Assembly (NCBI GenBank): GCA_003235475.1 | Contig: QJWC01000088.1 | Span: 1 to 42,919 of the forward strand | DNA length: 42,919 nucleotides | Direction: 5' to 3' | Source of the DNA: Acidimicrobiia bacterium | GTDB lineage: Bacteria; Actinomycetota; Acidimicrobiia; Spongiisociales; UBA5794 | In this document: in pieces, positions 19,089-21,117 of the stretch | Layout of the letters: every line of letters starts with the position of its first letter | Position numbering within the stretch: the stretch's first letter is position 1 | Position numbers and translations under genes: made by a program | Notes under the pieces: model-generated | The model's database searches: none | Seen by the model: only the letters and a program-made list of their open reading frames with translations | Told to the model about the DNA's origin: nothing

Positions 19089-19177
19089 CGGCTCATTCTT
19101 CGCCTCTGAATTCGCACGTTCCGGGCCCCAACCGCGACTCGATGTGCCTCCCGCGGAAGGAAAGTGGGTCGAATGTG

Positions 19178-19206
19178 TTGACAAGTGGCAGGAAGTGGGC
19201 CATAGT
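19178..19206 (+). promoter_or_regulatory. Promoter of the dcw cluster
   Basis: TTGACA (19178-19183, a perfect -35), a 17-nt spacer and CATAGT (19201-19206, four of six matches) make the best sigma-70-type promoter in the window. Expected transcription start is near 19213, giving mraZ a leader of about 37 nt. Confidence 0.75.
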
Positions 19207-19220
19207 GGGGCGCCGTGGGA
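19186..19220 (+). promoter_or_regulatory. MraZ operator: four TGGGN-type repeats on a 10-bp period
   Basis: TGGCA (19186-19190), TGGGC (19196-19200), TGGGG (19206-19210) and TGGGA (19216-19220) are separated by exactly 5 nt each. This is the arrangement known for MraZ binding in Escherichia coli and Corynebacterium. The boxes cover the spacer, -10 and start site of the dcw promoter, so MraZ should repress its own operon. An additional TGGGT at 19165-19169 is one base out of phase. Confidence 0.85.
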
Positions 19221-19249
19221 GATTTCGGTGATGATGGAGTCCACCTCAG

Positions 19250-19681
19250 ATGTTTCTTGGCGAATACAGCCATTCACTCGACGAGAAGGGTCGGGTCGTG
19301 ATGCCCTCCAAGTTCCGCGTGGGCTTGGCGGGTGGCTGCGTGCTCACCAAGGGACAGGAGCGGTGCCTCTACGTCTTCGCGACGGATCGCTGGGACGAGG
19401 AGGCGCAGAAGGTGCGCAGGCTCCCACGGACAGATCGGCGGGCCAGGAACTATTCCCGCTCGTTCTTCGCCTCTGCGTCGGACCAGACGCTCGACCGTTC
19501 GGGGAGATGTCAGATCCCCGAGACGCTTCGGTCCTACGCGGGGCTCACGAAGGACGTCACCGTCGTCGGTGTTGCAGATCGGATCGAGATCTGGGACACC
19601 GACACTTGGCAGAGGATCGCTGCGGAGGCAGACGAGTACTACGCCGAGATCGAGGAGGTGCTTTCGGAGGAAGGCATATGA
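19250..19681 (+). CDS. mraZ: Transcriptional regulator MraZ
   Basis: A 143-residue MraZ with two SpoVT/AbrB-like halves: FLGEYSHSLDEKGRVVMPSKFR (2-23) and the second copy around DQTLDRSGRCQIPETLR. MraZ forms rings that bind direct repeats upstream of its own gene and represses the dcw operon. The start has GGAG 10 nt upstream. The matching operator is present over the promoter. It is separated from rsmH by a 111-nt structured region. Confidence 0.96.
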   Translation: MFLGEYSHSLDEKGRVVMPSKFRVGLAGGCVLTKGQERCLYVFATDRWDEEAQKVRRLPRTDRRARNYSRSFFASASDQTLDRSGRCQIPETLRSYAGLTKDVTVVGVADRIEIWDTDTWQRIAAEADEYYAEIEEVLSEEGI

Positions 19682-19711
19682 CGAAGAGAGAACCGATGTG
19701 GGCTGGCTCAC

Positions 19712-19792
19712 GGTCAGTCCCCCGGATGCCAATTGGGAGGCCCCTTACTCCGCCCGCTTCCATGTTGGCGCCAGCGCTCCGGGGGACTGACC
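19712..19792 (+). ncRNA. Structured rsmH (mraW) leader with a perfect 15-bp stem
   Basis: GGTCAGTCCCCCGGA (19712-19726) is perfectly complementary to TCCGGGGGACTGACC (19778-19792), which ends directly before the rsmH ATG at 19793. The rsmH ribosome binding site GGGGGA (19781-19786) is wholly inside the stem. The 51-nt interior can form GCCAA/TTGGC (19728-19732 with 19765-19769) and GGAG/CTCC (19736-19739 with 19748-19751). An actinobacterial mraW RNA motif is known at this location; I cannot check this sequence against its consensus. Folded RNA should block rsmH translation until opened by a ribosome or another factor. Confidence 0.78.
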
Positions 19793-20728
19793 ATGGTTCA
19801 GCCCACATCACGCCATCCGCAGGGCGGCTATCACCAGCCCGTGATGGTCGACGAAGTGCTCGGCTTCCTCACGCCGGTCGATCCCAAGGTGGTCATCGAC
19901 GCGACCTTCGGCGGGGGAGGGCATAGCCGTGCAATTCTTGACCTCTTTGCAGACGCTCGCGTTGTCGGTGTCGACCGCGACCCGGATGCTGTCGCACAAG
20001 CGTTCGACCATGAACGCCTCACCGTTGTCAGGGACAACTTCTCGAACCTTGCCTCGGTTGTCGAGCGGGCCGGGGTTGCGGACGCCGTCGATGCCATCCT
20101 TTTCGATCTCGGTGTTTCGTCGCACCAGCTCGACGAGGGCGCCAGAGGGTTCTCGTATCACCGTGCCGGGCCACTGGACATGCGAATGGGTCCCGATGCC
20201 GTTCGCACCGCAGCAGAGCTCATCGATGAGTCCAGCGTCGAGGACCTCGCCCGCATCCTCCGCGACTTCGGAGAAGAACGCCACGCCCGTCGCATCGCAA
20301 CTGCGATCGTCGAAAATCGTCCGTTCGCCTCTACCGCTGACCTTGCGTCGTGCGTTGCGGGTGCCGTCCCTGCAGCCTCGCGCCGCGGGAAGCATCCAGC
20401 ACGCCGAACCTTTCAAGCTCTCAGAATCGCGGTCAACGACGAAATCGGCATCCTTCACGACGCCCTCGTTGGAGCCCTTGAACTTCTACGGCCTCGAGGT
20501 CGCCTGATCGTGCTCGCCTACCACTCCCTCGAGGATCGCATCGTGAAACGGCTTTTCGCAGACCGGTCGCAAGGGTGCGTGTGCCCTCCGGACCTCCCCG
20601 TCTGCCAGTGTGACGCAGACCCGGACGTGCGTTTGATCGCCAAGGGGGTCAGGGCATCGGAGGCCGAGGTCGCGGCCAACCCGCGGGCACGGTCGGCCAT
20701 CCTGCGCGTCGCCGAGAGAGCCTCCTGA
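19793..20728 (+). CDS. rsmH: 16S rRNA m4C1402 methyltransferase
   Basis: A 311-residue RsmH (MraW), which N4-methylates C1402 of 16S rRNA using S-adenosylmethionine. The SAM motif VIDATFGGGGHSRAIL (about 37-52), the HQPVMVDEVL start, DLGVSSHQLDEGARGFSY and the C-terminal AYHSLEDRIVK are all present. The upstream frame from 19733 runs through the leader stem and is not used. Its stop overlaps the ftsL start by one base (TGATG). Confidence 0.96.
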   Translation: MVQPTSRHPQGGYHQPVMVDEVLGFLTPVDPKVVIDATFGGGGHSRAILDLFADARVVGVDRDPDAVAQAFDHERLTVVRDNFSNLASVVERAGVADAVDAILFDLGVSSHQLDEGARGFSYHRAGPLDMRMGPDAVRTAAELIDESSVEDLARILRDFGEERHARRIATAIVENRPFASTADLASCVAGAVPAASRRGKHPARRTFQALRIAVNDEIGILHDALVGALELLRPRGRLIVLAYHSLEDRIVKRLFADRSQGCVCPPDLPVCQCDADPDVRLIAKGVRASEAEVAANPRARSAILRVAERAS

Positions 20729-21117
20729 TGACGGCACAAACGGTATCTGCAAGGCCTCTTCGCCGTGCACGGGGCATCGCGGCCGGAGGGCCCAGGATCC
20801 TCCCGTTGCTCTTCTTCGCGGCGCTCACCATCGCACTGTTCTTCGCGATGATCTACCTGAGGATCGCGCTCGACCGCAACGCCTTCGAGCTCGACCTCCT
20901 CGAGCACAGGATCGAAGTCGCCGAGAGCACCCAGCTCGACCTGCGGCTCGAGATTGCAGGGCTGCAGAACCCCCTTCGGATCACGAACGAGGCCAAGCGC
21001 ATCGGCCTGGAACATCCCAGGGAGCGTGTTGCTCTCGTCGTCACGGGACTCGCGGACTCGGCAGACCCGATCCTTCCCGAGGTACCCGTGCAGGCGCTCG
21101 AGGGGCAACAGCCGTGA
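20728..21117 (+). CDS. ftsL: FtsL-like divisome protein
   Basis: A 129-residue bitopic protein: basic N-terminus, one membrane helix (about 24-46), then a coiled coil (about 50-80) of the FtsL/DivIC type that pairs with FtsQ and other divisome partners. Sequence conservation in FtsL is low; the assignment relies on topology and on position between rsmH and ftsI. The start overlaps the rsmH stop. Confidence 0.85.
   Translation: MTAQTVSARPLRRARGIAAGGPRILPLLFFAALTIALFFAMIYLRIALDRNAFELDLLEHRIEVAESTQLDLRLEIAGLQNPLRITNEAKRIGLEHPRERVALVVTGLADSADPILPEVPVQALEGQQP

Follow-up and report, generated by a model that had tools for sequence, protein, structure and literature searches.

Why is the start of rsmH buried in a long hairpin, and what might open it? 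This question is raised by the junction between mraZ and rsmH in the window (the whole stretch of 42,919 nucleotides that was analysed; all features described below are on the forward strand). The product of the rsmH (mraW) ORF (19793-20728) matches RsmH structures (e.g., 3tka, E 7e-71); the upstream ORF, mraZ (19250-19681), has homologs that precede the same hairpin in related genomes; and the following ORF (20728-21117), denoted ftsL-like from its position and size, overlaps rsmH by one base (TGATG, 20726-20730). The rsmH gene is among the first of the dcw (division and cell wall) cluster; we know of no explanation for the presence of an rRNA methyltransferase gene in this cluster.

Upstream of mraZ, a consensus scan identifies a promoter-like site, TTGACA-17-CATAGT (19178-19206, 10 of 12 matches, 0.1 expected, a consensus match only), and the mRNA that bears the leader probably starts just downstream of it. 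No intrinsic terminator was found in the region scanned. The promoter-like site is overlapped by direct repeats of the GTGGG type at 19160-19221 (AAGTGGG, AAGTGGC, AAGTGGG, TAGTGGG, CCGTGGG), which resemble MraZ boxes, although AAGTGGG as an exact word by itself is not enriched in the window. An MraZ operator inside the leader was considered and rejected: the AAGTGGG boxes near the element sit at the mraZ promoter instead.

The hairpin at the start of rsmH

An earlier note on this DNA described a perfect 15-bp inverted repeat (19712-19726 and 19778-19792) whose right arm ends at the base immediately before the rsmH ATG (19793) and contains the whole of GGGGGA (19781-19786), the Shine-Dalgarno (SD)-like sequence of rsmH; all this can be read directly from the sequence. 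The repeat forms the central part (core) of a more extended stem, P1, with 32-nt arms (19695-19726 and 19778-19809) and two mismatches, in a 115-nt hairpin (19695-19809) that occupies the junction. The outer 5' strand of P1 (19695-19711) is predicted to pair with 19793-19809, i.e., the start codon and codons 2-6 of rsmH, so that the duplex crosses the ATG and reaches codon 6. The interior, where further short helices had been expected, is predicted to form P2 (19727-19733 with 19764-19770) and P3 (19736-19741 with 19756-19761, GGAGGC/GCUUCC), which closes a 14-nt apical loop, CCCUUACUCCGCCC (19742-19755); a 7-nt bulge, CCAGCGC (19771-19777), separates P2 from the 3' arm of the P1 core.

The minimum free energy of the fold is -67.8 kcal/mol, with z = -7.0 (19700-19810), and none of 200 shuffled sequences is as stable. 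In the predicted fold, the SD bases checked have an unpaired probability below 0.001, and opening the SD-to-AUG region would cost about 30 kcal/mol, a value computed with 19783-19795 held single-stranded and slightly underestimating the cost for the whole SD. RNAalifold additionally selects a pseudoknot between CGCU (19755-19758) and AGCG (19773-19776), which was rejected because it is invariant and competes with P3, and its AGCG is lost in family f6.

Conservation and covariation within the order

An rsmH gene was identified in 111 of the 119 relatives, and the hairpin with CCGCCCG in the loop is present in 100 of the 101 rsmH spacers read in the order; at least 90 of these 101 loci have an in-frame start codon at the 3' arm. 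In the lone exception (L110, from a 63% complete assembly), the loop is changed to CCGCCUAUUUCC and the downstream rsmH is full length. In an alignment of 45 sequences, 94.9% of the cells are standard pairs, compared with 31-49% when the partners are slid, and 17 of the 34 pairs show both-sided (compensatory) changes; neither this percentage nor the number of double changes is reached in any of 500 shuffles. The compensatory changes back P1, including its 15-bp core, and P2 (4 of 6 modelled pairs); the changes in P3 are all one-sided in this set. The earlier note had made its proposal depend on the inverted repeat and covariation in the mraZ-rsmH spacers of relatives, and both are there. Covariation extends to the pairs between the leader arm and the rsmH codons (columns 1-3 with 100-102), so that the stem appears to be under selection within the rsmH coding region. 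A covariance model built from these sequences, R1, recovers divergent left-out loci, including family f6, at 52-70 bits.

A single genome could acquire a perfect 15-bp arm by chance or as a recent palindrome, e.g., by template switching or from a mobile repeat, but such an origin is extremely improbable for an element that is present across the order, shows compensatory changes and is found in a single copy within its genome. The single copy rules out a repeated mobile or palindromic element, and the z-score of -7.0 together with the covariation rules out a chance fold. With both the SD and the start codon engaged in conserved pairing, according to the fold and the covariation, the element is almost certainly a conserved cis-acting leader RNA that hides the ribosome binding site (RBS) of rsmH.

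Constraint on the apical loop

A loop profile covering 96 loci of this order and 50 loci of other orders points to the apical loop as the most conserved part of the element. CUCCGCC is invariant across the 96 order loci, which had been chosen for containing it, and 95 of these loci also retain the C and G that come next, with the stems varying; judging from this profile, the strongest constraint is on the apical loop rather than on the stem. In two other loci of the order, outside these 96 (L017 and L067), AACCGCCCG and UACCGCCCG replace the CUCC-containing loop sequence; these have lost CUCC and retain ACCGCCCG, with an A preceding CCGCCCG that matches 16S rRNA. The CAGCG of the 3' bulge is invariant in alignment A2 and missing from family f6. 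In a species-wide genome collection, rsmH is located directly 3' of the loop core in 72 of the 76 named contigs carrying it, most of which are labelled Acidimicrobiia or Actinobacteria. As a separate observation, locus L208 (3797-3940), on a contig labelled Acidobacteria, contains the loop-core pattern twice, at a spacing of about 120 bases, with no rsmH nearby.

In other orders of the class Acidimicrobiia, to which this genome belongs, the loop is kept in 40 of 88 loci under the strict pattern, on different stems; many of these leaders add a CGGGGAGAxAUCCCG hairpin, and in some the start codon lies well downstream. Among the remaining loci, the leader is lost in many and near variants occur in some. 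Given that the loop is kept while the stems and the start codon spacing differ, the loop, and not the RBS lock, is the constant part, and its persistence where the hairpin is away from the start codon shows that RBS burial alone does not account for the element. These observations bear on the possibility that the hairpin is a passive lock or a processing site, in which a long duplex that senses nothing either holds down the translation of rsmH compared with that of mraZ or serves as a substrate of RNase III. Such a role would fit the very stable duplex over the SD and AUG, with its approximately 30 paired positions, probably long enough for RNase III, but is quite unlikely given that the loop is conserved more than the stem and persists in loci of other orders whose start codon is away from the hairpin.

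The additional hairpin of the other orders, CGGGGAGA(C/A)AUCCCG, follows the loop module and replaces the 3' bulge of this order (L135-L138, L240, L256, L271, L272, L322 and others). Kissing of the loop CUCC with the GGAG of this second hairpin was considered and rejected, as several loci are without GGAG. In L254, L261, L283, L295, L304 and other members of family f10, the leader is lost and mraZ almost abuts rsmH; relatives from the same family retain the leader, which makes this loss a natural comparison for leader function.

Resemblance of the loop to the 16S rRNA target of RsmH

RsmH methylates N4 of C1402 in 16S rRNA (PMC5053481). The 16S rRNA of this genome reads ACACCGCCCGUC in the C1402 region and the leader reads ACUCCGCCCGC; ACUCCGCCCG (19747-19756) is identical to 9 of the 10 bases of the 16S sequence ACACCGCCCG (1396-1405, E. 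coli numbering), including all 7 bases of CCGCCCG around C1402, with C19753 as the equivalent of the target C. The match of 9 out of 10 over ACNCCGCCCG is the top 16S site. The resemblance was noticed post hoc, and for the heptamer match by itself the chance probability is 0.013-0.044 (in shuffled loops of the same composition, P is 0.013 for CCGCCCG and 0.044 for any 7-mer over C1402). When the loop-core profile is scanned over 16S rRNA, the C1402 site comes first, with 12.0 bits vs 0.9 for the next site; this top rank is lost with the full 23-nt profile. The equivalent of G1405 is the first base of the P3 3' strand (19756-19761) and is thus predicted to be paired, as is G1405 itself within helix 44 (PMC5053481).

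Several observations bear on the weight of this resemblance. CCGCCCG is common in the GC-rich window (27 copies), and the genome has four occurrences of the 11-mer ACUCCGCCCGC, in line with its control. The loop almost always has U in place of A1398, and the equivalent of G1401 is A in 6 of the 50 loci from other orders, CCGCCCG being kept in 100 of 101 loci of this order. The scan for mimicry covered 16S rRNA, no 23S having been found in this genome.

The strict conservation of the loop implies a binding partner, which might be one other than RsmH that controls access to the RBS, either a small molecule, making the leader a riboswitch, or a protein reading the same 16S site, such as RsmI or an assembly factor, the 16S match then being partial or coincidental. 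Two features unexplained by 16S identity, the U in place of A1398 and the CAGCG conserved within the 3' bulge, are compatible with this possibility; it is nevertheless fairly unlikely, considering that the element is confined to rsmH (72 of the 76 contigs) and that, within 16S rRNA, the RsmH target is the site best matched by the loop core. The same association with rsmH and the retention of the loop on differing stems in other orders speak for mimicry of the RsmH target.

Possible feedback on rsmH

In target mimicry, the loop would serve as a decoy of the RsmH target: free RsmH, or another factor reading the C1402 site, when in excess of its ribosomal substrate, would bind the leader and change how often the RBS opens. 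The simplest form would be negative feedback on rsmH, which might extend to ftsL by coupling via the TGATG overlap; candidate openers for basal expression would be ribosomes arriving from mraZ, RNase III or a helicase. That such feedback acts on rsmH is a tentative proposal whose chances fall short of even, because the resemblance was found post hoc, chance matches occur, the G1401 equivalent varies, E. coli RsmH acts on the 30S subunit and not on protein-free 16S rRNA (PMC5053481), and METTL15 shows similar micromolar affinity in vitro for h44 oligonucleotides and for poly-A, with non-specific binding via the backbone (PMC10828496). Furthermore, the predicted hairpin seems stable enough to make repression by a bound protein superfluous unless something else opens it, and the loss of the leader in part of the class counts against mimicry feedback.

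Taken as a whole, the combination of a conserved RBS-hiding leader RNA with target-mimicry feedback has slightly less than an even chance. The version in which RsmH controls its own translation via a hairpin that reproduces its target nucleotide, C19753 perhaps being methylated itself, and in which RsmH and ftsL would be matched to the supply of unmethylated 30S, is possible if doubtful. If the leader does read the supply of the RsmH substrate, ribosome maturation would be linked to cell division genes.

Comparison with known systems

In autogenous control by rRNA mimicry, exemplified by ribosomal proteins and by the action of the ErmC methylase on its own mRNA, a protein binds a copy of its rRNA site in its own mRNA and alters translation. 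The rsmH leader is similar in that the mRNA carries a copy of the rRNA site of the encoded protein, but in those systems binding is proven by experiment, whereas here the evidence comes from sequence and structure; moreover, RsmH is a housekeeping enzyme that needs the 30S subunit in E. coli (PMC5053481). The literature searched contains no description of RsmH feedback on its own leader or of a function of the mraW motif, an absence that is not proof. In the msiK RNA motif (RF01747), the basal 3' strand of a long hairpin likewise includes a predicted RBS, and feedback by the encoded protein has been proposed (PMC2864571); the msiK gene is unrelated, and there is no RF01747 match in the window at the gathering score.

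The closest comparison by location is the mraW RNA motif (RF01746; Weinberg et al. 2010, PMC2864571). The earlier note suggested that the leader might be a distinct class if it did not match this motif, and the searches agree with that view. The RF01746 model finds no match in the window, either at the gathering score of 50 bits or with E up to 10, and none in 16 related loci (E limits of 5-10 over these searches); it matches 19 of 297 genomes of the phylum, this genome not among them. A search of 17 mraW-type loci with R1 finds no motif, the single chance match (E 2.7) being outside the motif, and over 397 genomes of the phylum R1 matches only in Acidimicrobiia, except for one perfect palindrome. 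This palindrome (L139, around position 1544) has more than 40 bp per arm, contains CTCCGCCCGC and is located away from rsmH. No Rfam family reaches its gathering score in the window, and the miRNA matches in the cmscan output are long-hairpin artefacts far under their gathering scores. By these searches, the element is a distinct class of rsmH leader, specific to Acidimicrobiia among the genomes sampled.

The two leaders nevertheless share several features: both lie between mraZ and rsmH in Actinomycetota, the mraW RNA, a candidate cis-regulator, is also a long hairpin of about 100 nt whose apical loop is conserved (PMC2864571), and UACUYC..CC occurs in both loops. The mraW loop, ACUUCCCC, differs in being closed by CCUG/CAGG on a nearly unbroken stem and in missing CCGCCCG; it is not present here, where CCCUUACUCCGCCC is closed by P3. 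In most loci read, the mraW RNA ends well before the rsmH start, whereas the leader in this genome runs through the start codon. One mraW RNA match (L048) has two tandem apical hairpins, with ACUUCCCC in each. The shared location, long hairpin and loop motif are compatible with distant kinship or with convergence. That the leader belongs to the mraW RNA family as a strongly diverged member, which would fit any of the mechanisms proposed and accords with the occurrence of both in the same place and phylum, is unlikely, given that neither model finds the loci of the other and that the loop and architecture are unlike. For the orphan mraW RNA motif, which occupies the same place in actinomycetes, RsmH itself would be a testable ligand hypothesis.
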